The notes under the pieces: model-generated
The model's input: the letters and a program-made list of their open reading frames with translations, nothing else
Database searches by the model: none
What the model was told of the DNA's origin: nothing
Made by a program: the position numbers and the translations under genes
From: Mya arenaria
Lineage: Eukaryota; Mollusca; Bivalvia; Myida; Myidae
Assembly (NCBI RefSeq): GCF_026914265.1
Contig: NC_069124.1
Coordinates: 73,966,765 to 74,030,764 of the forward strand
Direction of reading: 5' to 3'
Length of the DNA stretch: 64,000 bases
In this document: piece after piece, positions 3,911 to 61,590 of the stretch
Layout: each line of letters begins with the position of its first letter
How positions within the stretch are numbered: position 1 is the first letter of the stretch

Positions 3911-3948
<38 letters not shown>

Positions 3949-32097: not shown

Positions 32098-32885
32098 TGT
32101 TGAGTTATGCCCCTTTATGAGTGACAAAACACCCAAAGATGAGACTTGGTATCCACCTGTTGAATTATGCTCCTTTATGACTGAAAAAAACCCACGGATG
32201 GGACTTCTTATCCTGTTGAATTATGCTCCTTTATGACTGAAAAAAACACCCACAGATGGGACTTTGTATCCTCCTGTTGAATTATGCCCCTTTATGACTG
32301 AAAAAAACCACCCACAGATGGAACTTTGTATCCTCCTGTTGAATTATGCCCCTTTATGACTGAAAAAAAACACCCACAGATGGAACTTTGTATCCTCCTG
32401 TTGAATTATGCCCCTTTATGACTGAAAAAAACACCCACAGATGGAACTTTGTATCCTCCTGTTGAATTATGCCCCTTTATGACTGAAAAAAACCACCCAC
32501 AGATGGAACTTTGTATCCTCCTGTTGAATTATGCCCCTTTATGACTGAAAAAAACACCCACAGATGGAACTTTGTATCCTCCTGTTGAATTATGCCCCTT
32601 TATGACTGAAAAAAAACACCCACAAATGGGACTTTGCATCCTCCTGTTGAATTATGCCCCTTTATGACTGAAAAAATATCCACAAATGAGACAAAGTATC
32701 TGCCTGTTGAATTATGCCCATTTATGACTGACAAAACACCCAAAGATGAGACTTGGTATCCGCCTGTTGAATTATGCCCCTTTATGACTAACAAAACACC
32801 CAAAGATGAGACTTGGTATTCGCTTGTTGAATTATGCCCCTTTATGACTGACAAAACAACAGATGAGACTTGTAGTCCACCTGAA
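32098..32885. repeat. minisatellite, 13 units of about 60-62 bp
   Basis: 'tgttgaattatgcc' recurs at about 32099, 32158, 32214, 32275, 32337, 32399, 32460, 32522, 32583, 32645, 32705, 32765 and 32825. Central units are nearly identical and edge units diverge. Where units are exactly 60 bp the frame stays open, giving spurious open frames of about 100 codons on both strands. Confidence 0.88.
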
Positions 32886-34149: not shown

Positions 34150-34701
34150 TTAATGTTCACCATCCGTTGTCTGTACTGGAAACTGTGTATGGTTCACAAA
34201 GTTTGTAGGGGATGACACTTCCTGCTGGTCAGCAAGAGAAGTCCTGAAATCTGGTCTGTCTGCTCGACCAGCATCAGGCTGGGTGGAGGGACCTTGACCA
34301 GCATTGTCAGGTGTGATAGAGGTGAATTCATCAGAACCGTCCCCTTGACCAGCATTGTCAGGTGTGATAGAGGTGAATTCATCAGAACCGTCTCCTAACT
34401 GTGATACTCTTATTTTGTCATACATGTGCGATGGAACAGGTGTGAGATATGTATTAGACAAAGGATCATTATTTTGTTGTTGTCGATCGTTTCTGTTGTC
34501 GTATGTATGAGGGTCAACATTTATAATACTGTTATAAATATGAGAACTGTTTCTTGGTATCTGAGCATCCTGAGGGGTGTTTCCCCCATAGTCTGGGTTG
34601 TTGATTGTGGGACTGATTCTCGCAAGTTCCTCATTCCCCCGTCGTGTAAAGCTTGCCCGTACTATCTCCGGTGTGGACACCCCATGCAGTGGATTTACAA
34701 C
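34150..34701 (-). CDS. SRCR gene exon 34: cytoplasmic tail with Tyr motifs and a 17-residue duplication
   Basis: Encodes 183 residues (1811-1993). NPDY (Tyr 1848) is a classic NPxY internalisation or PTB-binding motif. Tyr 1866 (HIYNSI), 1877 (HTYDNR), 1895 (NTYLTPV) and 1904 (HMYDKI) are further candidate phosphorylation sites. A 17-residue unit, GDGSDEFTSITPDNAGQ, is repeated head to tail (51 bp period at about 34300 and 34351 on the plus strand). The tail is otherwise polar and probably disordered. Confidence 0.9.
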   Translation of the reverse strand, partial: VVNPLHGVSTPEIVRASFTRRGNEELARISPTINNPDYGGNTPQDAQIPRNSSHIYNSIINVDPHTYDNRNDRQQQNNDPLSNTYLTPVPSHMYDKIRVSQLGDGSDEFTSITPDNAGQGDGSDEFTSITPDNAGQGPSTQPDAGRADRPDFRTSLADQQEVSSPTNFVNHTQFPVQTTDGEH

Positions 34702-37700
34702 CTGAAAAACATAACCGAGTGAAACACTACAATCAGAAGGCAATATATCAACATATTGATGCATGTCCAAAAGTGACAAAACAGAGGAGCCGGAGTTATT
34801 TCATATTGGGGCGGCAGGGTTGGGTCACGTCTGGGAGGGGGTCAACCCCTTCCAGTTGCTGGATTATTTTTTTAATTATATTGCTTAATACGCATTTTTA
34901 GGACTTACATCAATGGTTTGAAAGAGCTTTTTTTTTATATGTAAATATATTTATACCTCATTGTAGTGCAGCCAAGAGTAATTTGAACCACTGGCCCCAA
35001 TTTCTCGAAACTTCTTAAGCTTAACAGGCTTAAGTCGCTTATTTCAATTAGCCAAAATACACACTAATAATGGATTTTGATAAATGAAACATGATTTCTT
35101 CTAATTAGCATACAGATTTTTCTTATATAATTTATAAAAACTCTTAAAGAAGTAAATATAACGCATATTATAGAACAACAAAAATAGTGAGTTTAGCTTA
35201 ATCCATAAGGGACTTAAGAAGTTTCGAGAAATTGGGGCCTGAGCATTGAATGACCTTTTAAAAAGAACACTTAGGAAAATTCAAATTTCGAGGTTGTTTT
35301 AGCTCTGAAATGTGTGTTAAGAGAAAAATGAAGAAAATATGATGCATAACTGCTTCTGCTGCAACTTATTTTTGAATAAACAACATATTCTTTTGATATT
35401 TTCAGACAAATGTGATAAAATCTTAATTAGTCATCTGCAGTTTGCACATACTGTCATTGTTATACTTTACTCCACTAATCTTTGATGACAGCTGATTGCT
35501 TCAAAATCAATAAACGTGTCGTTGATTACCCAATACACCATCACTTTCCATAGGTACAGATGATAGCACCGTTCACACATTGGCAATAAATGAACAGTCA
35601 TAGCTAAATTATAATTTCGTAACAAAATATTTTTTTTTTTCTGCATTGGTCTTGATCAGCCGAAATATTGGGGAGGCTATTTTGTCAATATATATGCAAA
35701 AAGCTACAGAAACATGCTCAGTAGTAAAAAGTTTAAACATAAACCCGGTTTAGTGGCAAGTTTGGAATCAAGTACTTGCAAAAATTTAGATTTCAAGTCA
35801 TGTAATAAATGGTGTTATTAGGGAGGAATTATCCACAAAATCATCATTTTGGGCAACATTTTCATTGATATTAGTGTATTTAACCATGAGTGTCACCGAA
35901 AAGTGCCGATAAATGCATTTATAATTGGAAATGAACAGATTTTTCAAATAAACTGTTCCAGCGCTAAAATCTGCCCCTGCAATAAGGATCACGGTGTTAG
36001 TCAAGAAGCCAGGACTTGAGTGACAGCAATTTAATCTAATTTCGGATTTTTTCTAGAAATTGGGGAAAAATAAACATGTTTGGGATTTGGAATGGGTCAG
36101 ATATTTTGACCCGTCAGATGGGCAGAAAAAGGCCTGCAAGGGATAAACTTAGGAAACAGCATCTAGGAAATGTATAAAAACAAATAACGAGCAATTTTAA
36201 AGAAACATGCATGAATGAACTGTAATAATTCAATAAAGTTGTATCTACCCGAAGAGAGCTATGGTGGTGTTCTTCAACAATGTTGTTATGGAACTCCACC
36301 TTTGACTCGTCGGCCTGCCGCCTCTTTTTGTGACATTTATACAAGCAAAACACAAGTACTGCTATCAGCACGAGGACAACAAACACCACCACTGCTATCA
36401 CAATGGGCAGCTCCTCAAAACGATTCGGGTCTGTGGGTACCGTTATTATTTTCTCTGTAAAAACAGGAGTGTGCATTTATATATATTGATATTATATTAT
36501 TCTGCAATAATTATGGAACTATTTATTCGGTTTAAATGGAAATCTTCAAGTCTTTAAATTCTACCTTTAGATCTGTGACTCTCAGCAACCTTAAAACCTT
36601 GCGATTCAATTGAAAATGATTTTTTTTTTTATAAGACCTCTTTAAACTTTAATTTAATATGCAGCTTATCATAATCACTGACAACCTATAACACTTATAA
36701 AATCATAAAAAAATCTGCCATTCTAATTCTATGCCAATTTTTATAACTACTTGAAGTTCATGTATTAAGGACCTTCCACAGTATAAAAGTGGGTGGCAAA
36801 GGGCAAAACTACACGACAACCTACACATGTTGCAAATTGAGATATGATCAAAAGCCGCAACATGTCGAAAAACTTTGACCAAATTCAATCAGGAACCAGA
36901 CTTTATGTTTAGGATCACATACATTTGTTAAACTTAATTGACTGATGATGGTCACGGTGAACAACTGTGTAAAGTATCAAGTCAACTGAATTAAAGTTTC
37001 TTGAGATAAGACTAACAAATCTATATGCAACGCCCCCTCCCCCCCCCCATTTTTGTAGAGGCATAATAATCCCCAATTGCCCTTAAATGTTAACAAAGTT
37101 TCCAATGTCAATTAAGAACCATTATTTGTATTTAGGATATATAAAGTTGTCTTCATTAATTTAAATTCTTACAATGTTGGTGAAACAAGTTATTCCAACA
37201 TTTATTAATCACTCTTGTTGGCACGTTGTTACGCGAGAGTGTGGTCTTGTGTTGTGGGGGAGTACCCGGAGGAATCCACTTGTCCAGCTTTGTGACCACA
37301 AACCAGTGTCTATCTTCATTGACTGACACCCCTGTCCTCAATTGTGTTAAAGATCAAGTCAATTGAACAAAAGGTATTTAAGATATTAGAAAAATCCCAA
37401 CATTCCCTAAAAATTTAAGCAGACGCAGACGACGAAGCCAAGGTGAGTACTAAAGCCTGCCTAATTTGTTGAAAGTCCAGCTTAAAATGAAAAACTTTTT
37501 TTGTTTGGGTACTTCAAATGAACTCTTGCACTTTAGAAAGCATCTAAAAAAAAACCTGCTACATACGTGTAGTTGAAAGACTGAAACCATAGCAGATGAC
37601 AGAGGCATATTTCCCACCCTGACACGGGTCCACCTCCAGACAAGCTGTAACATCTTCCTCTGTACCATCACACTCCATCTGCAGCAATAATGATAACAGC

Positions 37701-40700
37701 AAATTTTACGAATATTTCAATAGGAATACAAAATTAACTCCCAATCTAAGCAGGACCTTGACCTTTCATGTAAATACCTGGGACTTGTGTGCGACACGCC
37801 AACTCATCATGGTGAACCTTCATGGCAAGTGTTTTGAAAATCCTATAATTCATGGTCAAGATACAATCTGGACAAGGATCATTTCAACCTTTGACCTCTA
37901 AGTGTGACCTTGATCTAGGTCTTGTGCGCATCACACCACCTCATTGTGGTGAACATTCATAAAAAGTTTTGTAAATATTTTAAGAATACTTGTTTAATGA
38001 ACCTCACCTTGTGTGTATCAAGAAGCGGGTATTTCGTTAGGTCACCATACAAGTCACAACACTGAGCCTGCCCGTCCCGGAAGCCAAGTTCCCGACACAC
38101 TGTAGCCGCAGATAGGTCCGTGAAGCCGTCAGAACACACAGTGTGCCATGTCTCTCCCCAGTACAGCAGCACAGCCCCCTTGTCCGTCTCCCGACCTACA
38201 CCAGTCGATAGCTTCACTGAAGGACAACAACAGGCGTATTATAATTTCATTTACTACATCATTCATTTAATTTACTTTTGGCTCACCCTTTTTAAAAAAA
38301 GGATAAAAAAGTGATAATGATAATGCCATTTATATCCAACAAAGAAAATAAATACCCTACCAATTTGAGAATTAAGCCTGAAAGGGTTTAAGAAAATATA
38401 AACACACACCGGAGGTGTAGCAGAAAGCACCGGAGTCCCTCTGGTGTCTAGCACAGGATGAAGATATTGCTGTGGTCCATTCAGATGACAGGCACTGGTT
38501 CAGGGAGCCCTCTCCTCCCCCACATGCTATGTTCACTTCCCACACTGAACCAGACATGGGACTCAAGTTTCTGGGTGATAAAAAAGAAATATTTTTTTCC
38601 AAGGTTAACAAATATGAAGAATTCTGATTAATCATTGTTCATTGTAGTATCTTTTACACTTTTTGCTTGATTTTTACGGCAGCTGATAGCTTATAAAATC
38701 ACTCTCCAGTCCATTTCCTGGGTAGAAATCAGAACTGGTGTCCATTTTCAGATACCATGAGAAAGTACACCGGTGGGTATCGAACCAACAACCTCTTCGG
38801 TGAGAGGGGGACACATCAGACCACTCTCCTTGTGTTCATTGTAGCAACATTCATCTCCAAGACTGGTAGGTCATGTTTCATACAATTTTGCAATAGGCCG
38901 ACAAATTTCCCTACCCTCCATGAAATGCCTCTCCAGTGCGAAACTCCAGCATTCTACATAGCACCTGAGCATCCACATCGTCCCAGTGTGTGTTACACAG
39001 GGACCGCCATTCCCCATTCAGGGACACCTCAACTCGGCCATAACGTGTCTCATTACTGCCGCCTAGGCGATAAAACTGACCTGCAACAACATTTGGCATT
39101 TCTTTAAACAAAGCAATCAATATGTCGAGGATATTTGTTGATTTCAGTGTAAGATCATATTCTATTTCACGAATGTCATAGAAAAACAAATTTTCACAAG
39201 TGGCAAAGCCAGGTTTTACTTTGTAATAGCAAGATATTTGTTGATTTCAGAGTAAGATCGTATTCTTTTTCACAAATTTCACAGAAAAACAATTTTTCAT
39301 GAGTGGCGAAGCCACGTTTTACACTTTATTAATTGATTTCAATGTAAGATTATATTCTATTTCACAAGTGTCATAGAAAAACATATTTTTACAAGTGGTG
39401 AAGCCAGGTGTTACTTTGTATTTGCACAATACATTTTGATTTCGTATTCTATTTCACAAGTGTCATAGAAAAACAAATTTTTCCAAGTGGCAAAGCCACG
39501 TTTTACTTTGTGAAAAAATGCTTGCTTTGAATATTTTTTAAACAAACTTGTTTGCCAAGGGAGGCAAATAGGGAACAACTAGTCACAGAGTTATGGCTCT
39601 TAAAAACATCACCATCTGATAATGTTTTAAAAAAATCCCTTAAAACCAAACTAAATTTCTGATGACAAATAAATTCCTTTTCTAAAACACTTCATTTCAA
39701 GGGAGGCATTTTAGGAAGAATTGGCAACATAGTTATGGTTCTTTTATGTGCTTAAGTTCAACTTATAATTGCTATTTATCAATCTTTGAAATATTAACTT
39801 CTTTCCATATATAATGCTGAAACATTTCATTTTTTAAAGGAAGGCAATTTGGTAAAAAGTGGTCACAAAGTAATAGTTCTTGTTTTAATACAAGTTCACA
39901 GTGATGTATTAATGCGTCTAGTCTCATTCAATTCCTTATATAACTGTTCAAATGTGATGAAAAGTGAATGTTTATGTTTAAAAGGCTTTAAACCTGACAA
40001 TATTTTTCTAGGATGTATGTTACTTGTCTTAGAAGAATGATTGTTACTGTTATCAAATGTTTAAGTATTTTGAGGTTGATATCTTCAATGGTTATTAAGA
40101 AAATATAAAATATGTGGTTGGACTTACAAACAGACATGTGAATCAATACAAAAGTAATAATTATATCAAATTCTGTGTCATGATTTTTCTTACCTTCATT
40201 ATCATAGCAGACAGCTCCAGCATGGCTAAGTTTGTTCACACAGTCGCTGGTGGAGCCTAGCTGTGTCTGCTCACAGTCCCCCAGCCTGCTCTCCGTGCCT
40301 GTACATTTCACATTGGACATCCAATAAGGGCCCTCTACTGTCCTGAAAACAGAATGCTAGCGGCTTATATGTGAAGAAAATGCTTTACCAAACTTCTACA
40401 TTTGTACAAGAAATTACCTGAAAAAAACAGTCAAGTTATTTTACTTGGTTGTACGATAGTGATTCCTTTGAAAACATTTTTTCTGAAGAAGTCTTATGAC
40501 TGAATACAAAATTACATCTATAAGGATGATAATGGCATGCAAGCAAAACATTAATAAAGCTGCCAAGGCATGGGCAAGTGTATTCTAACAAGAAACAGAG
40601 CATTAAAGGTACCACTCTCATGGTCTACCTTTCAGCATTGTTGTCATTTCCTTTTCTGCATCTATCACATCTATCATAGGCTGTGTTTATAAAAGGCAAT

Positions 40701-43700
40701 TTCATCAACCAATCCATCAATCAGTAGGACTTACATAACATTATCACCTACTTCTAACCTACCTTGCAGCATTGTAGGCAATTCCTCTCCTGTACCCCAG
40801 CTCCCGACAAGCCACAGAGGCATCTACATCATCCCAGCCATCAAAGCACACACTACCACTCACATTGAGGTACCGAACCTGTAGATGACCGATGTAGCTA
40901 CCTGGGATTGGCAAGCTTAAGGTGTAGTCTGGAAGAAGCAAGTATACATTCGTGTGCTTTGGTTATCACAGTAAGTGTTCCTTTTAGGAATAAAAGTTGC
41001 AACTTCAATAAACCAACTCAAAACTTTTGTCTAATTGTTAGGTAAATGTTAAAAGGTACCAAGCAAAACCTTGACCTTTGACCACATGTCACCACAACCT
41101 TGACCTTTGTCCAACTGACCTCAAGATCAATAGGGTCAACCTGTTGGCCATTTCCATCCAGCCTAACAAGTTTTAGATCTAAGGGTCCAAACGTTTTTCA
41201 GTTATGAAAAGATAGATTTTCAACTCAAAGTCACTACAACCTTGAGCTGCATTTTACCCTCGTAAGAAATGATTAAAATTACTTAATTTTATGAATGATA
41301 GGCAGTTAGGTTGTTGAATGTACCAGAGGGTTTATTCCCAGTGTAGCAGACAACAGCTGCATAATTCTTCTGGCAGAGGGCTGCCTGGTTTGCAGGGATG
41401 ACTTCATGGGGGCAGTCTGTTAGCTGACTTTCATCACCTGCAACAAGATATAGCAAGATAAAATGTCATATAAAAGTTATTATAAGGAGGGCCCGCACAA
41501 AACATTTCAAATATTTTCCTAACAATGGCAAGGTTCGTTTCACCTTTGAGTACAACATTTCAACTAATCAAATACCTCCCTTAAAAAAACCTCTTGTTCA
41601 GTTACAGTGAAATAAGATTATAAGCATAAATACAGAGTGTGTTTCTGTGTTCTGCATCCAAAATGAACTGTAAAAATCACATGGACTTGAAAGCGGGGCT
41701 GAAACTTTCCCGCCCTTTTTATTGCACAGTTTCAATTTAAGTAGTTGCTATGGTAATATGGAATCTCATGTGGTTCTTTTAAATAGCTCTATGGCTACAC
41801 AGACCTGCCTCAGGTGTTTACCTTTGCAATCTGTGTTTGCCTGAACAGTTTCGAGATTTATGACTTCAAATGGAGAGCAGCACAACAGGAGTCCGGCATC
41901 GTATCCAATACTGCTGCAGGCAATATCTGGAGAATATCAAACTGATGATAGAGAAATAAATTTATAAACACCAACGCAGAGACAAAACAAATTTTGTAGC
42001 AAGACATCAAAGATGCAGCTGAATAGGTTTACCGGTAAGTGTGAATATATATTTTTTATCAAAACTTAACTGTGAGTAATCATAAGTTTAAACATTATAA
42101 TAAGTAATTGAAATAAGCAGTGATCACATGAATTGATATATAACATATTAAACCAAGAGAGCGTATTGCAATCAGAATGACCCCCGAATGAAAGCAGATT
42201 AGTCATTTCCCAGTAAATGTCTGCTGGACTATTTTAGGACATAGAAATAATTTGATGGAAATAAAGAATCTTATGTCCTTTGCCAATGCATATGTTCTTA
42301 TTTACGCTTTTTTTCCTCAGGTTTTTTTTTTACTTAATCAATTTGAAAATGTGTTATTTATCATAATAATATTAGAAAGTTCAGCTTAGACTTCTTACAT
42401 CTTAAGTAATAATCATGATTTTTTTTATTTCAAAAAAAGATGATTTACTAGCTTCCTTCTTAGTGAATCCCTCAGCACACACAAGCCCTTGTCTTGTCCC
42501 CCGGGAAACCAGCACCGCCCCATAGAACGTAGGATCACCTTGTATCAATCGCACTGGGAAATTTAACAAACAATGCATTGATAGAAAAAGGCACATACTT
42601 GATCTTTATATGTAAATCACATATCATTGGATACTTGGTAATTATCTGCAGAAAAAAGGCATTGTCAACAGATATATGAGCAGATTCGGTAATAAACATT
42701 ACCAGCAGTGAAGCAGGTAGCCCCGGCTAGGCTTCCCGACTTTCCCCTGGTTTTCTCTGGGTCCCAGGCAGCCACACACTGCAGGATTGATGCTGCATTA
42801 TCCGGGCAACTCATGTTCACAACCCCATAGGAGCCCGACCCCGCACTAAAATAAAATGGCCACATATATCCATAGGCTACTTGACAACTCACAGCTAACA
42901 ATCAAATGCCTAAACCATTCCCTCATCCAACACACGCCATAACCCTTATCTTGGTAAAGTAGGCCTCATTGCTATATCCACAACCAGATGTCACTTAGGT
43001 GTTGAGAAGGTATGAAAAGCTTTGATGCTATTTGACAATAACCTGTATGAATTTCCCCCAGCATAGCCGAGACCTGAGCAGTAAACTGCAGCGGAGATAT
43101 CGGAGGTCGGATGGCCGGCCACAAGCAGTGTGTTTTCCCCAGCTTGAATTTCTAGTCTCGTGCTCATTTCTCCTCTCTCATAATCTAGCGGATTAGAGCG
43201 AAATTGAATATCTGTATCTGAAAATAATCAAATAGAGGATATTTGTTGCTTATAGTGAACGTTTATATTTTATTTCACTTGTGTTCAGAGAATTTTCTCT
43301 TTCTCATGGCACTCTGCAGTCATTGCTATGTCATTGTCTCGAAAATTGTCATCTGAGATCAAATGTGATGGTGTCTTTTTGAATTAAGTCACTTATGGCT
43401 GTGACTCCTGATGCTTCTTACAACACACACATTGGTAACTGGCTACAAATCAGCAAATATTAAATCATTTTACAAATGAAAATGGATCTGTTTAAAGCTT
43501 GTATCTAACAACAGGACAGTATAAAGCTATTTTGTTACGATGTTTATCAAACCATATCGCGATACAGTATCAATATTTTTTGTATCCTCATGACTAAAAA
43601 TTAGCTACTAAATGACTGATCTTTGATTAGCACATGAGAAGATTTCAGGTTATTTGCTTTAACAAATAAGGTTTATGCTAATAAACATAAACTTATGATC

Positions 43701-49700: not shown

Positions 49701-52700
49701 CCAGTTCTATTAACAGTACTCAATATGACATTAAACCACTAAGTGTGACCTTGATCTTTGAGATACAGACCTCGGTCTTGTGTGTGACATGTAATCTCAA
49801 TATGCTGAACCTTCATGGAAAGTTTTTGGAAATCCTAGTGCATGGTTAAGATACCGGCCGGACAACCTTTGACCCCTATCCTTGACTTTTGACGTACAGA
49901 CCTAGGTCTTATGCGCGACACACAACCTAACCATGGTGAATCTTGATGGCAAGTTTTTTGAAAATCCTATAATGCAGGGTTAAAATACAGCCCTGATATA
50001 GTTTATTCCGGATTGACAGATGAAGGCACGCACACACATACACTGAACCACCATTGTGACAACTTTGTCTCGCTCATTGCAAGTCGGCTCAACAAAAATA
50101 AAAAATGCTGATGAAGATAGATATTTACTTATTTTTTTATCGTAACACAACTTCTAAATTGATTGTAAAAGCAGCCAAATTGTAAAGGTCCATGAATTTC
50201 TGCAACTGTAAGGACTCGTAAGACAAATCCATATGTGAAGGAAGCAAATGCTAAACTTTTACCTTGTCAAGATATTCATTGAAATGTCATTAATACTGTA
50301 GTCGAATTAATAAATGAAGTCAAATAAACACAGCAATAGATGTATATAAAGACTACAAGTAACACAATTCTTAAGATTATTTTTAGGGATGGCAACGAGT
50401 AGTAAAATTGGTACTCAAGTACTCGGACAATCTTTCAAACGAGTACTCGATTACTCGGAAAAATTGAACTTGTTTTCGGGAAAGACAAGATCGTGTATAC
50501 ATGTATCGTTCATGACGTATATTGTGCATTGGTCGTATTATCTCATTTTCATCTTTAAATTAGACTTACCTGATGTACTTTAACAGAAAAATAAATAAAA
50601 GGAAAACAAATGTTGTTTCAGGCTTTTAATTTTGTCTTTTTCATTTCATTTTAATGATTTTATATATAAGAATGCACTGCAAATTAGCTACAATATAGCT
50701 GGAAAGTTTAACCCGGATTTTATTCAAGCGTCTAGATAATCGAGTTTATAACGAACAACAACCAGAATTACAATGACGAAAATTAATAGCATACAAAAAA
50801 ATAATGAACGAAATACTTCGTACTGTATTATTGTTGTTACCTCATTAATATTCATAATTCTTGATTTAAGATATCAACCAATCAATTGTGATAATAATTT
50901 GCAAAAATAGTTAAAATACGCCTATTAAGAAATCAATGCTCGTAACGGTTCGCTCATTAGCGTCCATTGTTTGGTGAAAGGTCTCTAATTGGTAAACAAT
51001 AGAATTGTGTAGGTGAAAGTACCGCTATCAAAACTTCGCTAATTGACATCAGTGCTAACTGGAAATAGGGGCCCTTTGTTGACAGTTTGCAACTCTCACA
51101 ACACTTCTGAAACTAATTTATTAGGGTCAATTGTGTACACAGCGGGGATTAAAATGACCGCAAATTGTCCTCTCGGCAACTAACCAGATCTTATACTCTG
51201 TAAAATCGTGTATTTGGTGATTTTTATAGATTTTTTTTTTCCCGAGTACTCGAGTAGTGATTTGGTACTCGAGTACTCGGACGATCGATCGAGTACTCGG
51301 GTACTCGTTGCCATCCCTAATTATTTTTGAATTGACAAGTACATGTATGCGGTACATGTTATATTTGGGTCAGAATACAAGCAGCTTCTATCACATGCAT
51401 AACTAAAAAAGTGTTCTTACATATTAGTATGCAGACATTTCCTAGAATACATGTAGCATGCTATTTGGCTTTTTTATCATCATTTTAGTGCTCACAAACA
51501 TCATAAATGCTTCCGCTGATAAATTAAGTGGACACGTAATACATGTACTCTACATACAATCATAAATAACAGAAATGTACCATGTTTATAACAGAAGACA
51601 CCGGCATCCTTGTTGTGAGTGCATAGGGAACTAGCAAGTCCCCAGCCAGCATTAGGACAAGCCAATATGGAGGATTCTGTTCCTTCACAGTCAACGTTAG
51701 ACAGGACCGTCTGAACCGATATGTCTGCTATCTCATTGTAAGCTGACCTGAAGAGTTCATAATGGACAAATACTAGCCAGCTTAAATAAGTGCATGCTCT
51801 ATTTCCCATACTGATTTTGCAATGCAGAAACCAAATTTATTATAGATTTTACAGTCACTACAATATTTTCATTTCTTTAATAATTGCATATATCCCCTAT
51901 AAAAGTAGATTTAAATAATGTCCCTGTCTGTGAGAAAAATAATCATTGATATATACACTAATCATACATGTACAAAAGAAATATAGTTACGGGTTTGACT
52001 GTCCTGAAGCAAAACCCAGTTCCTTGCAGACAACAGCAGAATCAGCATTGGTCCATCCCATATAACATATGGTGCCCCACCCTGTCATATCATGGTAAAC
52101 TTCCACCCGACCATGCACCTCATCTTTTCCCGCATTCAGTCGAACCAACGAGTCTACAAAATATAATTTACATATATCTAACTACTCAACAAGCGGTAAT
52201 ACGCTTATTATTTTTTTTATATACTAGACGATGCATTCATTTGAATTTAAACCAGATATGATTCTTAACTATCATTTCCTTACTGCTACAAATAAGATTT
52301 TACAATGAAATATACTGTTTTACCTTGTCTCCTCATGTTTTAAAGTATTAAATGTAACAAATCTGCGTTTCAAGTGACTGTTGTAGATTATACGTACTTA
52401 TTCTTTACAACTAAATGGCTGATTAAATTACCTGGCAATGAACTATTATAACACAACACGCCCGCAGGTCCAAAGTTCTTTGCACACGTGTAGTCCTGTG
52501 GGCTGGTTGCTTCATAGCTACATTGGGACAGGTCTGTCTCGGTTCCTGCACACTGGACATGGCTCAACCATGCTGGCTTGTACCTGTCAAAGTACAGCAT
52601 TTATTAACCAGGTCAAAAAGTTTTGAATGTTTTTGGGGGTTTTAAACACTCCTGGGTTTATAGAAGATACTTTAAAACAAAGTTACCATTTTTGTCAACA

Positions 52701-55700
52701 CTTTTTGCTTTTAGGCAGTTGGGTAATGAGAAGCCTTCATGAGACCTAATTCAATCAATAATAATTGAACTTGGCAAAGTTGACTTTTACCCCTTATGGT
52801 GGAGTAGTTGCCTTTGCGAACATTTTAGATACATTGTACTGGTATCTTGCCTTTGACTGATCATATTTCAAAACAATGACCACTAAAAAGGAATTCTAAT
52901 TGAAGTGTTTTAGACAATGCATGGTAAACAGTAGACACGAAACTAGACAGCTGAACCAATCACATACCGTGCATCAATAATTCTCAGCATGACCTGGTGA
53001 CCCAGTACAACCCCTGTCTGGTAACCAGCCTGCCTGCACGCCACTTGAGCTGCCATGTTGTCCAGGCCACCACGGCAGATGTACCCCTTAAGCCCCAGCC
53101 GATCCACCGTCACCGCTCCATCTCTCCCAGGCACAGAAAACGTGTATGCTGCATAGATATTTTACAAACTGTACATCTTATCATGATAATATTTTTTTTC
53201 ATATATATATATATATATATTGAAAGTAGTGAAGGGGGAGGGGTCTGAGGGTGAGGCGCATGTCCACAGGCTGTGGCCCCTTAAGTTAACCCTCTTTAAC
53301 CTAAATTTCTGGATCCACCCCTGTATATATACATGTATAAATGCTTCATTGATTTTGCTTCGACCCTGAAGCTACATGCATAATTATTAATTCAACTCGA
53401 GTCTATACTGGATCATATCAGTTCAGGCAATCACATTTAAATGGAACAAGGAACTGGTGTAAAGCCGGAGATCTTTACTCAATATCTTTTCATAAATACA
53501 TATGTTACTAGTATATATAGCAATACATTTGTACAGGGTTTCAGCAATTATTAACACTTCAATGAAACGAGGAAGAAAAGTCAAGTCTGAGATCTTATCA
53601 TTACTCACTGCCACATTTTCAAATATTAAATTTGTTCACATAAGTAAATAAAGGAACTCTGTTTTGTCCTATCAACTTTTACCAGACATATTACTGGATT
53701 AATCATAATTTCAATTTTACTCACTATCTGATTGTATTGAGTTTCTACAGAGCACAGCCGCATTCAGGTCAGGGTCACAGGCCCCTGTGGTGTATGGGCA
53801 TTCCTTAATGCTGGATTCCAGTCCGGTACAGTTCAAACTGTTAATTGTTTTGGATCTACAAGACAGAGACTAGGGATAAATAATCATCCAAACAATGGTA
53901 ATTGAAACTTAATCAAAACACTATAACAATAACAGTAACTGTAGTTCATCTGATCAGTTCAACAAAACATGTATCCAAATTGTCCAGTTCCATATACTCC
54001 CAGTATGCAAAATACACAGTACAAAAGATATATAAACAAAGCATAAAACTGATGTAATTATAATAAATTTGCATATTCTAACAGCAGGAAATCTACTATG
54101 CTTAAAAAACAAATATCATACTGTGTTCCTCTGTATTCACTGGGGAGGAGAATTTCCGCTGTGGAAAACCCCTGTTCCCTGCAGACAACGTTGGCGGCTG
54201 CCTGGGAAAGAGTCTCGGCACACACCGAGTACCAGAGGCCTCCATGCAGCACCTGCAGTCGACCAAGATGAACTTCATCAGTCTCAGTTCCCACTCCCAC
54301 TAGTCGCACTGAAAACAAAACAGAATGAGCATCTTGCTGTTCAAATAAAGTTCAAATGATGCCTATAAAATAAGAAATAATATTTTGAATACCCCTAAGA
54401 AATTGGAGTCTTCATCTTTTTATTTAATCAATTACTGTGTTGATTTTTCATATTTACACATACTCATTAATTACTCTCGCAATTTTAAATGTTTTCATTT
54501 TAATATATACTTGAATATACATATATGTATATGATCAGAACCTGTAATGATTCAATTCAGAAATAAATGTTCAGTTTTCCAATCATTATACAAATGCTTC
54601 TATACAGATAAGTTAATATATCTTACCATTTACATAGCAGAAAACAGATACAGCCTGGGCAGTTCCCTGACAGGAGTTGGAAACATTCCGCCAGCCATGA
54701 ATGTCGCAGTGGTAGAGGTCGGGCTCCTCATAACTGTCACATGACACTCTGGACAACACCACAGTATCAACATCCCCACTGTCAAAGACCTCACTGAATA
54801 AGGACAAGTATAACTTTTATAAAATATATTACCACCGGTAATTATTAGCTGCAAGTTGAACATTGAAACATAGTGTTTACAGATCCACCTTATTATGCAT
54901 CTATGCATGCAGTTTGTGCTAAATATGTGTTCACACAATTCATGTAAAAAAACTGTAAAAAAGTCTTTGTCCAATATGTTTTCACTTACCTAAGGGCAAA
55001 CTGTTGTGTAATTTAGTTGTATTCCCTTACCTCAGGAAACATCCTGTTGTGTATCCTAGTTTACCCTTACCTATTTACGCTTCCTGTTGTATATCCAAGT
55101 TGCCGACAGAGCACCAAGGCTTCCTTCCAGGTGAAACCCTCGGCACAGATTAGACCTTCCTGACCACCCGCACTGACCACAACTCGACCATAATTATGCT
55201 TGCCACCAGTCAAGTAGAAAGAACTTTCTGCACCTGTAAATTTAAATAAATTTAACAGTTGAACACATTTGTTTTAGTTTGTTTGTCATAACTTGACTCT
55301 GATAATCATTATTACCTTGACAATAGATAATCATTTTCTCGGGATACTATTTTATACAAATGGATGCAAAAAGAACGAAGAACTAAAACTTATTGGCAAC
55401 AAGAACAGTATTTCGCGCCATATATGTCATACCTGCAATTAGTCCACCTAAATGGCCGTCAATGAGTCTTTTGACGATTTTTAGACTATGGCAGACTCGT
55501 GACAGGGATACACATGAAATGTCGAAATAATAAAAAAAGTATCCCTGATCGCTCATTATTGTAGCTAATTGCTAGGCAACAGTTAATGGCGGCATCAGAA
55601 AATTAAATGACTAACTAGCTATAATGTATGCATGCGTCAACGACCTGGAATCAAATAACAGTAAACTCGTCTATCTACACTGTAGGTGTTGGGACAAAAG

Positions 55701-57890
55701 TTGTACATCGTCTTAAGGCCAAAGGGTCTGTTATGCGTTCACTTTGCTTAGATACGTTTGCAACGTTTATGTACTCATGCATGGACCGAACAACACATGT
55801 ATGCGAACGTACTGTCGGGTGGTTGGCAGACCACGCCCAATATTTTCCCAGCACGACAGTTGCCCTGAACATGACCGCAGTCTCCGAACACGGCTGCGCT
55901 GCCACAGTTCACCTCGGACCTCAGAGCCGGAATGGTCCAGTTGGAAGACAGATACAGAGCCCGACCTTGCTGGGAACATATTTGCATAATTTATATATAT
56001 ACAAGTAAAAGGAGACCCTTTCATGTATGTACACTATATACGCATATTATTTAAATCATAATGTAATACTGATGAGAAACCTCGTTATTAATAGTTAAAA
56101 TACACATCTAATTGAATTTTAGAGTGTCATCGATCAGCCGCTTGTTTCCCCAAAAATCAGTGAGCGGGTTAGGGTGGGTCTACAACCCAGGGGATTTAAA
56201 CAAACTTTGAATTTTATTGAGAAAAGTCCTATGAAGAAGTGAGATTTGTCAATCATCAACTGGCTCAGTAAATTATTGTACACATATGCCCTGGCCCGCC
56301 TACCCGGGTGAAGGACAAGTACACTGGACCGATAATCCTTGCTCATGAGATGACGTTTGCTTTACCTGAAATCCTTTCTGTCTACAAGCGAGCGCAGCAA
56401 CCGTCTCTATGCGAAATTCGTCGTCGATGTCTTTTTCTGCACAAACATGTCCCCATACATTGTGTTCGTAAATCAACAGTGGCGAGAAATAGCCTGACTC
56501 CGGAAAACTCAGATTCGAATCAAACTTAAAACTTCCAATCGGAACTGTAAAAAGAAACCAATATATAAACAGAAAATATATTTCATAATTATACAATATT
56601 TCAAATTAAACCGCAAACTGTATAGGACAAACCATAAAACTTTTTATAGAAAAACACGCACACAAGTTTGTAATGCCAACTAACCTGTTTGGGCGTCGCC
56701 GTTTCTACAACTGACAGCCGCATAGTTGAAGGAACTGTCTGAACACTCACTTACAGTGAATGTGCAATTCGACAATCTTACATTAGGACCATCAGGACAA
56801 TCTCCTACAATGGCTGGAAAAAGAACATTTCAATGACGATTCCACTCATTCACTCAAAGACTATATAGCCGACGACCGTGTAGAAACAGGTATACGTGAC
56901 AACATAACTGACAAACACGTATGCATACGTTAGTTCGTGTTTGCATATTTATGTAGGCTAATGAAAATCGAGAAATTTTGAAATTGCCTCTTCACTAATT
57001 TTTGGTAGATAGCTTCTGCCGGACGAATGCACCAAAAATAGTTTCAATGTGCATATTTCAGTCAGTCTTTTTCCACTAAGGCTTACTTGTTAAACTAGTG
57101 TTAAAAGTTTTGGTAACATATACTTGGTGTTGCAGTTCTAAGTCGGCCAATGGCAATCGATGATTTTTCGAATTTATTGTTCGTTAATTTTACGAAGGTC
57201 GATTCTGACGAATGTCCAAGTTTGCAAGTAGACACAATGGCCCAGTTTCTATTCAAAACGTTTACTTCTCATTTGTTTGCATAGAAATTATTTAACATGC
57301 TCATCTGTAAGACCTTATTATTCCAAGATCATATTCTTCACAGGTCACGGAAAAATAGGAATCTATTACCGTTGTAGGATTGGAGTTCAGTTTCAGCTAT
57401 TTCTCCAAATGATCCTGTCGGAAGCATAGAACCCTGGAGAAAGCCCAGTTGTCGGCAAACCAGTGAGGCGTGCTGGTCAGTAAATCCCGAACTGCAAATC
57501 TTGTATGTCAATGTCCCTTCTGTCAGGATTACCACGCCAACTGCGCTGTCTGTGAACCGACTGCCACGGTACATCGACACATCGCCTGTAAACAACCAGG
57601 AAGATGTGGGTTGGTACTTGAAATATTATACAGTTAAATAAATGTTTTCTTTGTTCATGTTTTGTAAAGAAAAACACTTTCTTGAGAATTCCTGTGTACT
57701 ATAATTATCTTGTTAAAAGTGTTTGTGTAATAGAGAACGCCAACGTTATGTATATAAATTGGATCTATAAATTCTAATACAACCAATACATCATTATAAT
57801 CACAATACCGCGCATACCATTGAAACCTTGAGCAATGGCTAGTGACGTAAACACGTGCGCGAGCAGAACCAACTGTCCTACTGAAAACAT
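34150..57890 (-). CDS. transmembrane receptor with 16 SRCR domains
   Basis: Thirty-four coding exons, from 57890-57818 (signal peptide) to 34701-34150 (tail), sum to 5982 nt: 1993 residues plus stop with frame kept at all 33 junctions. Order: signal peptide (about 1-22), SRCR domains 1-16 (25-1741, each about 100-115 residues), short stalk, transmembrane helix (about 1757-1780), then a basic stop-transfer (KCHKKRRQ) and cytoplasmic tail (1781-1993). Most SRCR domains have the six cysteines of group A; three (7, 13, 16) carry an extra CC pair. Every domain border is a phase-1 intron. The tail has NPDY plus four further Tyr motifs, suggesting endocytosis and phosphotyrosine signalling. SRCR receptors (CD163, DMBT1, M130 types) bind microbial or host ligands, so an immune or scavenger role is likely but inferred. 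I cannot name a specific orthologue. Confidence 0.92.
34993..35239. mobile_element. 247 bp MITE with 27 bp perfect TIRs
   Basis: GGCCCCAATTTCTCGAAACT at 34993 starts a 27 bp arm matched exactly in inverse at 35213-35239. It also has internal 'cttaagcttaacaggcttaag' symmetry. It lies in the last intron of the SRCR gene. No coding content. Confidence 0.8.
35240..36248. other. intronic sequence, nothing recognised
   Basis: Remainder of the last intron of the SRCR gene. AT-rich, with no supported repeat or exon. Confidence 0.4.
36249..36454 (-). CDS. SRCR gene exon 33: stalk, transmembrane helix, stop-transfer
   Basis: Encodes a short stalk ('IITVPTDPNRFEE'), then a strongly hydrophobic segment 'LPIVIAVVVFVVLVLIAVLV' extended by FCLY (about residues 1757-1780), then the basic KCHKKRRQ. 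Type I topology follows from the signal peptide and the position of the positive charges. Confidence 0.92.
37567..38216 (-). CDS. SRCR domain 16 (exons 31-32), membrane-proximal
   Basis: Exons 38216-38008 and 37678-37567, joined in phase 0, about residues 1635-1741. 'HTVCSDGFTDLSAATVCREL', 'AQCCDLYG', 'MECDGTEEDVTAC' and 'ASVICYG'. It carries the CC pair and eight cysteines, like domains 7 and 13. Confidence 0.85.
37740..37965. repeat. decayed tandem-core repeat
   Basis: 'aggaccttgacctttcatgt', 'catggtgaaccttcatggcaag' and 'gaaaatcctataat' phrases recur here and at 49610-50090. These intronic remnants belong to one dispersed family. Confidence 0.5.
38410..39080 (-). CDS. SRCR domain 15 (exons 29-30)
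   Basis: Exons 39080-38915 and 38570-38410, about residues 1526-1634. 'YGRVEVSLNGEWRSLCN', 'AQVLCRMLEF', 'IACGGGEGSLNQC' and 'SGAFCYTS'. Six cysteines. A tRNA-derived SINE-like sequence lies in the intervening intron. Confidence 0.86.
38690..38830 (-). repeat. tRNA-derived SINE-like element
   Basis: The plus strand shows 'gggtatcgaaccaacaacctc' (inverse of a B-box) next to 'tcggtgagagggggacaca', followed upstream by 'cctgggtagaaatcagaact'. It is related to 10640-10830, so the element is dispersed and lies on the minus strand. Confidence 0.55.
39120..39515. repeat. four tandem units of about 100 bp in an SRCR intron
   Basis: 'gatttcagtgtaagat', 'attctatttcac', 'tcatagaaaaacaaattttt' and 'aagtggcaaagcca' recur at about 39131, 39232, 39332 and 39425. 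The units are 80-90% alike by eye. Located between exons 28 and 29. Confidence 0.75.
40194..40928 (-). CDS. SRCR domain 14 (exons 27-28)
   Basis: Exons 40928-40763 and 40342-40194, about residues 1421-1525. 'SGSVCFDGWDDVDASVACRE' and 'VKCTGTESRLGDCEQ' are close to consensus, ending 'AGAVCYDNE'. Six cysteines. Confidence 0.87.
41040..41265. repeat. decayed dispersed repeat
   Basis: 'aaaaccttgacctttgacca' recurs as 'caaccttgacctttgtccaa', followed by 'ctcaagatcaatagggtcaa'. This is typical of the low-copy intronic remnants in this window. Confidence 0.4.
41324..42553 (-). CDS. SRCR domain 13 (exons 24-26), three exons
   Basis: Exons 42553-42449, 41926-41822 and 41437-41324, about residues 1313-1420. 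'GLVCAEGFTKKEAN' joins 'IACSSIGYDAGLLLCC', then 'NTDCKGDESQLTDCP' and 'YAAVVCYTG'. It carries the CC pair and eight cysteines. It is the only domain with two internal introns, both phase 1. Confidence 0.82.
42703..43217 (-). CDS. SRCR domain 12 (exons 22-23), cysteine-depleted
   Basis: Exons 43217-43043 and 42845-42703, about residues 1207-1312. 'NTLLVAGHPTSDISAAVYCS' lacks the first conserved cysteine. The second half has 'MSCPDNAASILQC' and 'AGATCFTA' but no cysteine in the stretch between them. Only four cysteines remain; the two that are missing normally pair. Confidence 0.8.
44215..44964. mobile_element. 750 bp pogo/Tc1-like MITE with TA target site
   Basis: TACAGTCGAAAC at 44215-44226 is matched by GTTTCGACTGTA at 44953-44964. 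Subterminal 'ggctcgatatc' motifs repeat on both sides. The outermost TA pairs fit a Tc1/mariner-pogo target duplication. No transposase frame. It lies in the intron between SRCR exons 21 and 22, which is about 1.9 kb long. Confidence 0.75.
45101..45574 (-). CDS. SRCR domain 11 (exons 20-21)
   Basis: Exons 45574-45386 and 45220-45101, about residues 1104-1206. 'GPVEVQRFGMWGHLCSSGF', 'MIVCKQIGYQAG', then 'VSCTGDENQLQDCQ' and 'VAGVICYNG'. Six cysteines. Confidence 0.86.
45724..46029 (-). CDS. SRCR domain 10 (exon 19, single exon)
   Basis: One 306 nt exon, about residues 1002-1103. 'WLTTCATNFNVHNAVVICHQ', 'REVDCVSQTDC' and 'IALYCSE'. Six cysteines with a short fifth-to-sixth spacing. Intronless like domain 7 but without its CC pair. 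Confidence 0.84.
46220..46575. repeat. short relative of the 2871-5308 element
   Basis: Begins 'gccaaaagggcccatgatcg' and ends 'gtggtcaggtgagctaaa', the same terminal sequences as the 2.4 kb element at 2871-5308, with one or two interior units. A tandem-core element with few copies in the core. Confidence 0.65.
46633..47421 (-). CDS. SRCR domain 9 (exons 17-18)
   Basis: Exons 47421-47197 and 46737-46633, about residues 892-1001. 'SSGRVEVKVKGIWGTLCD' and 'VICRELGYRAG' are canonical, then 'LKCNGSESSFSDC' across the junction and 'AAVACFSD'. Six cysteines. Confidence 0.87.
47755..48015. repeat. decayed dispersed repeat
   Basis: 'gcataactaaacaattattg' and 'gcataattaaacattcattt' mark two diverged units of about 155-160 bp in an SRCR intron, similar to 13715-14560. 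Confidence 0.45.
48114..48751 (-). CDS. SRCR domain 8 (exons 15-16)
   Basis: Exons 48751-48602 and 48260-48114, about residues 793-891. 'GYICSDDFSHLDAKVICTQQ', then 'LYCTGGQTDFRQCG' and 'VAGVICSS'. Six cysteines. Four tandem 39 bp intronic repeats lie between the exons. Confidence 0.82.
48371..48510. repeat. 39 bp tandem repeat, 3.6 copies
   Basis: 'tctcagtaactgttagttga' starts at 48371, 48410, 48449 and 48488. The 39 bp period is a multiple of three, which gives a spurious repetitive minus-strand open frame. Intronic, within SRCR domain 8. Confidence 0.85.
49089..49400 (-). CDS. SRCR domain 7 (exon 14, single exon)
   Basis: The whole domain lies in one 312 nt exon, about residues 689-792. 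'EEYGLVCADGFDQQAADVVC', 'PLCCSAMG', 'VKCTGNEASLRDCQ' and 'YAAVVCSD' follow. It has an extra CC pair, eight cysteines in all. No intradomain intron, unlike most neighbours. Confidence 0.87.
49610..50095. repeat. decayed tandem-core repeat, about three units
   Basis: 'tggtgaaccttcatggca' recurs at about 49622, 49805 and 49935 with 'tttgaaaatcctat', ending in 'ctcgctcattgcaagtcggc'. Same family as 37740-37965. Confidence 0.6.
50394..51319. mobile_element. 926 bp hAT-like MITE with 8 bp target duplication
   Basis: TAGGGATGGCAACGAGTA at 50394 is matched in inverse by TACTCGTTGCCATCCCTA ending at 51319. The flanks are both ATTATTTT (50386-50393 and 51320-51327), an exact 8 bp target duplication as in hAT transposition. 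Subterminal 'gagtactcg' motifs are abundant. No transposase frame. Located in the intron between SRCR exons 13 and 14. Confidence 0.88.
51581..52153 (-). CDS. SRCR domain 6 (exons 12-13)
   Basis: Exons 52153-51991 and 51747-51581, about residues 579-688. 'VHGRVEVYHDMTGWGTICY' opens the domain, then 'AVVCKELGF', 'VDCEGTESSILACP' and 'DAGVFCYKH'. One of the most canonical copies. The intron after it holds the hAT-like MITE. Confidence 0.87.
52432..53148 (-). CDS. SRCR domain 5 (exons 10-11)
   Basis: Exons 53148-52968 and 52583-52432, about residues 468-578. 'GYICRGGLDNMAAQVACRQA', then 'VQCAGTETDLSQCS' and 'GPAGVLCYNS'. Six cysteines. Confidence 0.85.
53725..54308 (-). CDS. SRCR domain 4 (exons 8-9)
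   Basis: Exons 54308-54122 and 53855-53725, about residues 362-467. Starts VRLVGVGTETDE; 'YSVCAETLSQAAANVVCREQ', 'LNCTGLESSIKECP' and 'AAVLCRNS' follow. Six cysteines in group A order. Confidence 0.85.
54627..55233 (-). CDS. SRCR domain 3 (exons 6-7)
   Basis: Exons 55233-55071 and 54793-54627, about residues 252-361. 'GLICAEGFTWKEALVLCRQL' begins the domain, and 'SCDSYEEPDLYHCD' and 'VSVFCYVN' end it. Six cysteines. Next to the donor of exon 6, a stretch of about 30 bp is partly duplicated ('cccttacct...cctgttgt' at 55024 and 55064), providing a second potential donor. Confidence 0.85.
55813..56544 (-). CDS. SRCR domain 2 (exons 4-5)
   Basis: Exons 56544-56366 and 55969-55813, joined in phase 0, about residues 140-251. 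'GHVCAEKDIDDEF' then an unusually long spacer before 'AALACRQKGFQ', followed by 'NCGSAAVFGDC' and 'VVCQPPD'. Six cysteines. Antisense open frames here are shadows. Confidence 0.82.
56685..57585 (-). CDS. SRCR domain 1 (exons 2-3)
   Basis: Exons 57585-57370 and 56813-56685, about residues 25-139. Motifs 'YKICSSGFTDQHASLVCRQLGF' in part, then 'LSNCTFTVSECSD' and 'AAVSCRNG'. Six cysteines are in group A order. The linker before the fifth-position cysteine is unusual ('VGDCPDGPNV'). Confidence 0.82.
57818..57890 (-). CDS. SRCR gene exon 1: start and signal peptide
   Basis: The exon encodes MFSVGQLVLLAHVFTSLAIA followed by QGFN, a typical hydrophobic signal peptide with an Ala-x-Ala-like cleavage region. 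It ends in phase 1 at AATG|GTATGC, the phase used by every domain border downstream. Confidence 0.85.
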
Positions 57891-61230: not shown

Positions 61231-61590
61231 TGCACTTGGGCAAGGTCCATTCGGCGAGTGCACCGATAACTTGGGCATGGTCCATTCGGCGAATGCACCG
61301 ATAACTTGGGCAAGGTCCATTCGGCGAGTGCATCGATAACTTGGGCAAGGTCCATTCGGCGAGTGCATCGATAACTTGGGCAAGGTCCATTCGGCGAGTG
61401 CATCGATAACTTGGGCAAGGTCCATTCGGCGAGTGCATCGATAACTTGGGCATGGTCCATTCGGCGAGTGCATCAATAACTTGGGCAAGGTCCATTCGGC
61501 GAATGCACCGATAACCTGGGTAAGGTCCATTCGGCGAGTGCACCGATAACCTGGGCAAGGTCCATTTGGTGAGTGCACCGATAACGAGTG
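61231..61590. repeat. minisatellite, ten 35 bp units
   Basis: 'ggtccattcggcgagtgca' recurs every 35 bp from 61244 to 61559. Units differ at few positions (gca/gta, acttgg/acctgg, cac/cat). Three units make 105 bp, so all minus-strand frames stay open and produce spurious repetitive 'proteins'. Confidence 0.92.

Follow-up and report, generated by a model that had tools for sequence, protein, structure and literature searches.

Of the closest described systems, DMBT1/SALSA is secreted and contains CUB and ZP domains, and CED-1, Draper and MEGF10 have EGF-type ectodomains. Cation sites are reported for SRCR1 and SRCR8 of SALSA (PMC7043408). In SRCR8, as described there, D1019, D1020 and E1086 hold the cation of site 2, D1020, D1058, D1059 and N1081 hold that of site 3, and the changes D1019A or D1020A each abolish ligand binding. 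The cytoplasmic tyrosines of WC1 are reported to be phosphorylated on activation (PMC8356672, PMC2906472), and in CED-1 the NPXY motif binds CED-6 and the YXXL motif, once phosphorylated by SRC-1, binds NCK-1 (PMC9388098). A survey of invertebrate SRCR genes stresses expansion of both genes and domains (PMC10855680), and the sections of this comparative survey covered here do not describe a receptor with the 16 or 26 SRCR domains discussed below. Neither receptor is described in the titles and abstract openings of the mollusc and bivalve SRCR literature, and a search of the open-access PMC literature did not find a description of the 26-SRCR receptor.

The window analysed, a stretch of 64,000 nucleotides from Mya arenaria (C3:73,966,765-74,030,764 in a 1.216-Gb assembly), contains a minus-strand gene that starts at 57890, stops at 34150 and has 34 exons that join in frame to encode 1990 aa (Table 1). 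The 1990 codons are open with no internal stop, all 33 introns are GT-AG and the ORF list has an in-frame stop upstream of exon 1. SRCR pieces, both half and whole domains, follow each other unbroken on the minus strand from 57.5 to 37.6 kb, most of them scoring 12-119 bits with the first SRCR profile. Three pieces (56787, 56473 and 55930) score only 5.6-8.9 bits, close to the best background match of 8.6 bits on the plus strand, and were assigned because they are supported by P0001 and by the later profile. The gene model was obtained by dynamic programming over splice sites and an SRCR profile, and was then mended by hand and from P0001, a 1788-aa 'C163B-like protein [Mya arenaria]' that is the public model of the same locus. 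A model from consensus splice sites only stopped at 24 exons, some ten short, and the bonus for the SRCR profile recovered those that were missing. Exons 4, 5 and 16 were set by hand, exons 15 and 19 were taken from P0001, and several splice sites of the model score poorly. Except for the choice of exons, the window matches P0001 at the level of single residues. P0001 backs most junctions of the 34-exon model, two of which were corrected from it, and lacks exon 1 with the leader, exons 25 and 32 and parts of exons 2, 11, 16, 29 and 31 (within D16, the end of exon 31 and all of exon 32 are missing). P0001 is either an incomplete annotation or another isoform; as an account of this locus, the public gene model is incomplete.

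Table 1. Features of the Mya 16-SRCR receptor gene, with positions in the window
Feature	Position	Strand	Basis
Exon 1: start codon and signal-like leader (MFSVGQLVLLAHVFTSLAIAQ...)	57818..57890	-	sequence read; absent from P0001
SRCR D1, exons 2-3 (= D5 of 26-SRCR receptor)	56685..57585	-	profile matches, order
SRCR D2, exons 4 (56544-56366) and 5 (55969-55813)	55813..56544	-	phase-0 join confirmed by P0001
SRCR D3, exons 6-7	54627..55233	-	profiles, P0001
SRCR D4, exons 8-9	53725..54308	-	profiles, P0001
SRCR D5, exons 10-11	52432..53148	-	profiles; P0001 has part of exon 11
SRCR D6, exons 12-13	51581..52153	-	profiles, P0001
SRCR D7, single exon 14, extra vicinal Cys pair	49089..49400	-	profiles
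SRCR D8, exons 15 (48751-48602) and 16 (48260-48114)	48114..48751	-	P0001 has part of exon 16
SRCR D9, exons 17-18	46633..47421	-	profiles, P0001
SRCR D10, single exon 19	45724..46029	-	profile, P0001
SRCR D11, exons 20-21	45101..45574	-	profiles, P0001
SRCR D12, exons 22-23, without C2 and C7 cysteines	42703..43217	-	cysteine alignment
SRCR D13, exons 24-26	41324..42553	-	profiles; middle exon 25 absent from P0001
SRCR D14, exons 27-28	40194..40928	-	profiles, P0001
SRCR D15, exons 29-30	38410..39080	-	profiles; P0001 has part of exon 29
SRCR D16, exons 31-32 (= D20 of 26-SRCR receptor)	37567..38216	-	profiles, order
Exon 33: stalk, TM helix IVIAVVVFVVLVLIAVLVF (aa 1756-1774), juxtamembrane	36249..36454	-	hydropathy 3.78 over 19 residues
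Exon 34: most of cytoplasmic tail and stop codon	34150..34701	-	sequence read
NPDY (NPxY/PTB-type motif)	34588..34599	-	motif
YNSI (YxxPhi)	34525..34536	-	motif
YDN (YxN motif)	34495..34503	-	motif
YLTP (YxxP motif)	34438..34449	-	motif
YDKI (YxxPhi)	34411..34422	-	motif
51-bp direct duplication, 17 residues twice in tail, GDGSDEFTSITPDNAGQ x2	34292..34396	-	

With PF00530, Pfam recognises 16 SRCR stretches (645 bits, above the Pfam cut-off, for an earlier 1978-aa version with one residue mistyped), which places the protein in the SRCR superfamily, and custom SRCR profiles likewise find 16 domains. The initial annotation had also given 16 SRCR domains, and its start and stop were exact; its 34 exons in frame are borne out by our model. 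The signal peptide it proposed corresponds to the signal-like leader read in exon 1, predicted, like the TM helix, from sequence and hydropathy, and the tail does contain NPDY and four more tyrosine motifs. Its architecture and its one TM helix stand, but the 1993 residues it gave for the protein become 1990, so that a few splice sites must differ, and its 213-residue tail becomes one of 216 aa after the TM helix. There are no further SRCR matches of at least 9 bits in the 40 kb above or the 20 kb below the window, versus 32 inside the gene, and the idea of missing N-terminal domains outside the window was set aside for lack of any such match in those 40 kb. A division into two tandem genes was dropped; a single gene is supported because the Mactra orthologue P0003, itself a predicted protein, carries these 16 domains on one chain and in identical order.

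A search of 5.8 billion proteins returned 98 matches, P0001 included, and the relatives are annotated as CD163-, M130- or DMBT1-like. Those of the 16-type are Mactra P0003 with 16 domains, Dreissena P0002 with 13 and Mercenaria P0007 with 11 (both N-terminally short), Argopecten P0038, Mizuhopecten P0040 and Pinctada P0035 with 15 each, and Solemya P0034 with 14; in the scallop orthologues P0038 and P0040 a signal-like leader directly precedes D1. When an alignment of seven 16-type proteins served as the query, a further search gave 89 matches, among which no new 16-type orthologue was seen, as judged by names and lengths. Proteins of the 26-type have ~3000 aa and mostly 25-27 domains, and occur in bivalves, gastropods, cephalopods and the nemertean Lineus. 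Orthologous domains are 38-68% identical, and identity between the 16-type and the 26-type is only ~33-36%.

Domain order was compared with that of the Mya receptor for 22 of the 98 matches, by domain-against-domain reciprocal best hits with shuffled controls. The same order in other bivalves, a check that the initial annotation had suggested, was found throughout in Mactra (16/16), Dreissena (13/13) and Mercenaria (11/11), and the longest ordered runs were 12 of 13 hits in Mizuhopecten, 11 of 12 in Argopecten and 10 of 12 in Solemya, with shuffle maxima of 8-9. Against the 26-type, hits lie on the +4 diagonal, 13 of 14 for Mizuhopecten 26a (P0004) and 10 of 12 for Mya 26b (P0012), again with shuffle maxima of 8-9. 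The corresponding counts are 7/10 for Patella, 6/10 for Octopus and 5/10 for Lineus, for which ordered runs of 7, 7 and 8 versus shuffle maxima of 7, 8 and 7 are weak on their own. By these sequence comparisons, the 16 Mya domains correspond in order to D5-D20 of the 26-SRCR mollusc receptor. Within the 26-type, the order of the Mya protein recurs in Dreissena (26/26), Patella (25/25), Mizuhopecten (21/21), Octopus (17/19) and Lineus (11/14), so that both the order and the number of domains (25-27) in this array have been conserved among bivalves, gastropods and cephalopods, and one nemertean adds support. Two lophotrochozoan proteins that are at or near the null against the Mya 16-SRCR protein, Tubulanus P0033 from a nemertean (4/10) and the 18-domain Patella P0032 (7/11), reach 11/16 and 17/18, respectively, against P0012. 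Sponge, placozoan, echinoderm and vertebrate arrays (seven invertebrate and two vertebrate proteins) do no better than the shuffles, with runs of 3-5, and homology by domain order to these arrays was rejected, all runs being within the shuffled range.

A midpoint-rooted FastTree analysis (LG, SH-like supports) of 1682 columns from 35 proteins unites the eight 16-type proteins in a single clade (0.999). The node that links this clade to the 26a proteins of bivalves and the 26a-like ones of gastropods has a support of 1.000, and the 26b type clusters with another set of gastropod proteins (0.992). Support for the sister of the 16-type among the 26a groups is only 0.389.

The cysteines of the Mya array follow the group A rule, C1 and C4 being absent from all 16 domains, and C2, C3 and C5-C8 are complete in 15, the exception being D12. 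C2 and C7 are disulphide partners in the SRCR fold, and both are missing from D12 in Mya and in all five orthologues checked (Mactra, Dreissena, Mercenaria, Argopecten and Mizuhopecten). Both C2 and C7 are retained in the corresponding D16 of two 26a proteins; for C7 in D16 of Mya 26b, two alignments disagree. An extra pair of cysteines, which is not C1-C4, is present in D7, D13 and D16 of the Mya receptor. Group A domains are as a rule encoded by at least two exons, and introns split 14 of the 16 Mya domains, D7 and D10 being single exons. The domains are flanked by phase-1 introns, borders that would allow domains to be lost in blocks.

Cation sites were located by MAFFT alignment to a single SALSA sequence. 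A site was scored as near-canonical when D, N or E occupied the positions equivalent to 1019, 1020 and 1058 and D or E that equivalent to 1086, and the counts leave out P0001 (same gene), P0035 (Pinctada, no TM in the record), P0028, P0029 and P0031. Among 21 proteins of the 26-type, near-canonical sites are present in 15 of the first domains, 18 of the last and only 4 of 506 internal domains; 14 proteins have a site at both ends, 5 at one end and 2 (P0014 and P0025) at neither. None of the 16 Mya domains has such a site, and the seven 16-type proteins together have one in 100 domains (1/84 without Mya). Scoring the site-2 residues only, the 26-type has 15/21 first, 18/21 last and 6/506 internal domains, and the 16-type 3/100, namely D6 and D7 of Argopecten and D7 of Mizuhopecten; with these scallop residues, loss of the site is not complete across the 16-type clade. 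No Mya domain has an acidic or amide residue at both the 1019 and the 1020 equivalent, a combination present in at least one domain of 4 of the seven 16-type proteins, and an acidic residue equivalent to D1020 remains on its own in Mya D7, D8, D14 and D16. In the Mya 26a gene, the site residues are directly visible in genomic D1 and D26. A Cys-anchored cross-check gave the same terminal pattern but could not decide 381 of 548 domains in one set and 63 of 100 in the other. Elsewhere, the canonical site is present in 26 of the 27 domains of an Acanthaster protein and in some domains of other arrays, and, by the canonical rule, in 0 of 22 for the sponge proteins P0045 and P0056; the large size of an array does not by itself account for its possession of the canonical site at the ends. 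The Mya protein, with 16 domains and none of them canonical, differs from the 26-SRCR receptors, with about 26 domains and canonical end sites, and shares with the 16-SRCR bivalve clade its domain order, its place in the tree and, for the five orthologues checked, a D12 without C2 and C7.

An NPxY motif is present in all seven 16-type tails, with 0.25 expected from shuffles, and in 21 of 24 tails of the 26-type, with 0.39 expected; in the 16-type it is kept beyond chance in this comparison, which is uncorrected for kinship. Tails of the 16-type are longer (115-263 versus 40-135 aa; 7 versus 24 proteins) and have more tyrosines (4-10 versus 2-7), with Mann-Whitney p-values of 3e-4 for length and 6e-4 for tyrosine count that are optimistic because the sequences are related. 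P0001 (same gene) and P0035 (Pinctada, no TM in the record) are not included in the 16-type tail counts, P0028, P0029 and P0031 are kept among the 24 tails of the 26-type, and P0024, P0030, P0032, P0033 and P0037, lophotrochozoan proteins with 18-25 domains and in some cases no TM, were placed outside the 26-type tail and site counts. A juxtamembrane stretch, F..xI....DGSL...N.L[YH], is common to 16-type and 26a tails, partly by eye; as a regular expression it matched only 8 of 31 tails, the further likeness to 26a having been seen by eye. Tyrosine motifs similar to those of Mya recur as HIYNSI in Mactra, HLYDSI and YLTP in Mercenaria, and YDKL, in a context similar to that of YDKI, in Dreissena. 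The Mya tail has no match to an ITAM (YxxI/L-x6-12-YxxI/L) or ITIM ([ILVS]xYxx[ILV]) pattern, and there are none in the Mactra or Mercenaria tails; ITIM-like sequences are present in 4 of 6 orthologue tails (Dreissena, Solemya and both scallops), with an ITAM-like pair in Dreissena, and with such motifs the receptor may, in some species, be inhibitory or act in a Syk-type manner. The view, implied by the initial annotation, that a large SRCR array with a TM helix and a tail is unusual is not supported, and large arrays with a TM helix prove to be common: of 75 matches with at least 10 SRCR domains (P0001 included), 56 have a TM, 33 an NPxY, 48 a tail of at least 50 aa and 25 a tail of at least 100 aa. 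The endocytic or signalling receptor that it had proposed fares better, as a plausible coupling in view of the conserved NPxY and the longer, tyrosine-richer tails, with the function itself predicted from these features. Its further suggestion, a ligand-triggered receptor of innate immunity, is a conjecture.

Contig C3 carries the 26a gene (34.807-34.864 Mb) and the 26b gene (73.087-73.158 Mb) as well as the gene in the window, and the 26a and 26b loci each have pieces of all 26 domains in order, most of those at 26b being 90-100% identical to P0012. At 26b, several additional D13-like SRCR exons separate D12 from D14 (C3:73.123-73.135 Mb; 29-74% identity to D13 or the nearest domain) and are perhaps alternative cassette exons. 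Within the 26a gene, a 79-bp unit made of the 3′ part of the first D9 exon and its GT donor is repeated ~34 times in tandem with 95% matches (C3:34,821,859-34,824,541; L028:6859-9541), and so forms a minisatellite of exon origin that offers dozens of potential donor sites. Over C3:13.49-15.54 Mb, an exon like that of D7/D11 has twelve matches; the one locus read there, near C3:13.572-13.575 Mb, has only D9-, D11-, D12- and D13-like pieces, nearest to 26b, which suggests partial duplicates. Dense SRCR clusters are found at C6:40.5-41.5 Mb, C6:54.5-54.7 Mb and C16:21.7-21.97 Mb. At least 204 SRCR matches are present in the Mya assembly, with 150 of 1340 candidates scored, and the clam accordingly has a large SRCR repertoire. 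The window also contains a proteasome alpha subunit exon (23947-24231, plus strand; Proteasome_A_N) and exons of a JMY/WHAMM-like gene (9631-15737, minus strand), with PF15871 and PF15920 at 14958-15737 and, at 12145-12459 on the minus strand, a weak match to PF15871 that falls slightly short of the cut-off. The 9631-10317 ORF has a long polyproline run and no Pfam match, and may be the 3′ part of this gene. Tandem repeats are located at 32098-32861 (62 bp), 61234-61585 (35 bp), 3523-5012 (166-340 bp) and 27243-28038 (145 bp).

The sites are almost confined to the ends of the 26-domain array, and the bivalve paralogue lacks exactly those ends, which raises the question of whether an array with no canonical site is still a receptor. 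In the account we propose, a bivalve type I membrane receptor would have arisen by duplication of a 26-SRCR mollusc receptor, nearest to the 26a type, followed by loss of domains 1-4 and 21-26 as blocks that left D5-D20 in unchanged order and removed both terminal domains with the SALSA-type dual cation site. The tail would have kept its NPxY and become longer and richer in tyrosines. In whichever cell type expresses it, the 16-domain ectodomain would bind a specific protein ligand or partner by contacts other than the canonical Ca2+ site; with no canonical cation-bridged surface, ligand would be captured through other surfaces or by way of a partner. Clustering of the receptor would then bring a PTB adaptor to NPDY and lead to endocytosis, and the YxxPhi, YxN and YxxP sites would engage SH2- or AP-2-type partners, as in CED-1/Draper. 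On this account, the Mya receptor is most likely an NPxY-coupled endocytic or signalling receptor with a specialised ligand, and not a classic polyanion scavenger, a function deduced from its architecture. Taken as a whole, from origin to working, we judge the proposal to be evenly balanced between right and wrong. The direction of change, with loss rather than gain, rests on parsimony given the midpoint root and the support of 0.389 for the 16-type sister, and sponge P0045 and P0056, without the site, and 26-type P0014 and P0025, with it at neither end, show that its lack is not special to the 16-type. A stronger statement, that bivalves made a second receptor solely from the non-canonical middle of the array, as a Ca2+-independent and ligand-specific or co-assembling signalling receptor, is tentative and on balance doubtful. 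If true, the central SRCR domains of giant arrays would have individual conserved tasks and would not be spacers or redundant binding units. Sites only at the ends and a paralogue without those ends make possible a direct test of which SRCR domains bind.

A conventional role is also conceivable, with the protein a multi-ligand scavenger or pattern-recognition receptor of haemocytes, like CD163 or DMBT1, that binds in a Ca2+-dependent manner over several domains and takes up ligand by way of NPxY, a role near to the one that the initial annotation had in view. The names of its relatives point in this direction, as do the partial acidic sites in some Mya domains, the complete site-2 residues in scallop D6 and D7 and the reported high expression of invertebrate SRCRs in immune-related tissues, notably digestive glands (PMC10855680). 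As judged by alignment, however, no Mya domain has the classic Ca2+ site that would be apt for a microbial scavenger of broad range and that is reported to be needed for ligand binding by SALSA SRCR8 (PMC7043408), and the part of the 26-SRCR receptor that has no counterpart here includes both of its canonical domains; we regard a conventional scavenger as rather improbable. The 16-SRCR protein might instead be a partner or modulator of the 26-SRCR receptors, in which the D5-D20 block self-associates, the 26-SRCR ends capture ligand and the 16-domain form adds its tyrosine-rich tail. The one-to-one correspondence of the central block and the presence of both receptor types in the Mya genome fit such a partnership, and it gains plausibility from CD163, whose multimers are reported to be built from base domains apart from the ligand-binding arms (PMC12274614). 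The CD163 contacts are, however, themselves described as Ca2+-mediated (PMC12274614) and the two types share only ~33-36% identity, so that we consider a partnership of this kind unlikely. That the gene is decaying or mis-modelled, with some exons wrong or the whole a pseudogene, could explain why the public model omits several exons, why D12 lacks two cysteines and why several splice sites score poorly. It is very improbable, given the open reading frame over 34 exons with GT-AG at every intron, the 38-68% identity of orthologous domains, and the absence of C2 and C7 from D12 in five orthologues, a change that is inherited and not a sign of decay.

Compared with known systems, the NPxY-coupled receptor proposed here resembles CED-1/Draper/MEGF10 in its tail, with NPxY and YxxL-type tyrosines (PMC9388098), and belongs to an unrelated protein family. 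WC1 of gamma-delta T cells similarly combines an SRCR array with a cytoplasmic domain but is group B and a mammalian multigene family. CD163 and CD163L1 (M130 and M160) are also type I proteins with an all-SRCR ectodomain, and CD163A has the tyrosine motif YREM in its tail and domain identities that are comparable across species (PMC2906472). They differ from the Mya receptor in being classed as group B (PMC2906472), with 9-12 domains, and, for CD163, in Ca2+-dependent ligand binding and multimerisation (PMC12274614). M160/CD163L1 P0062 is not colinear with Mya (a run of 4 among 7 reciprocal hits, null mean 3.5), and at this null level the Mya array shows no domain-by-domain correspondence with CD163/WC1. 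DMBT1/SALSA, the source of the annotated names, shares an SRCR array with the Mya protein, which differs from the secreted form in having a TM helix and in that no CUB or ZP domain was found in it by a Pfam scan up to E = 1. The caecilian DMBT1-like P0058 has cation sites in 3 of 14 domains, unlike Mya with none in 16, and is not colinear with it (a run of 5 among 8 hits, null mean 3.8, maximum 6). The 26-SRCR receptors (P0004, P0012, P0017 and P0026, 'DMBT1-like' by annotated name only) have the D5-D20 order, a TM and, in 21 of 24, an NPxY, and their 26a type also shares the juxtamembrane stretch of the tail. They are distinguished from the Mya receptor by their 25-27 domains, by domains with the Ca2+ site, which 14 of 21 have at each end and a further 5 at a single end, and by tails of 40-135 aa with fewer tyrosines.
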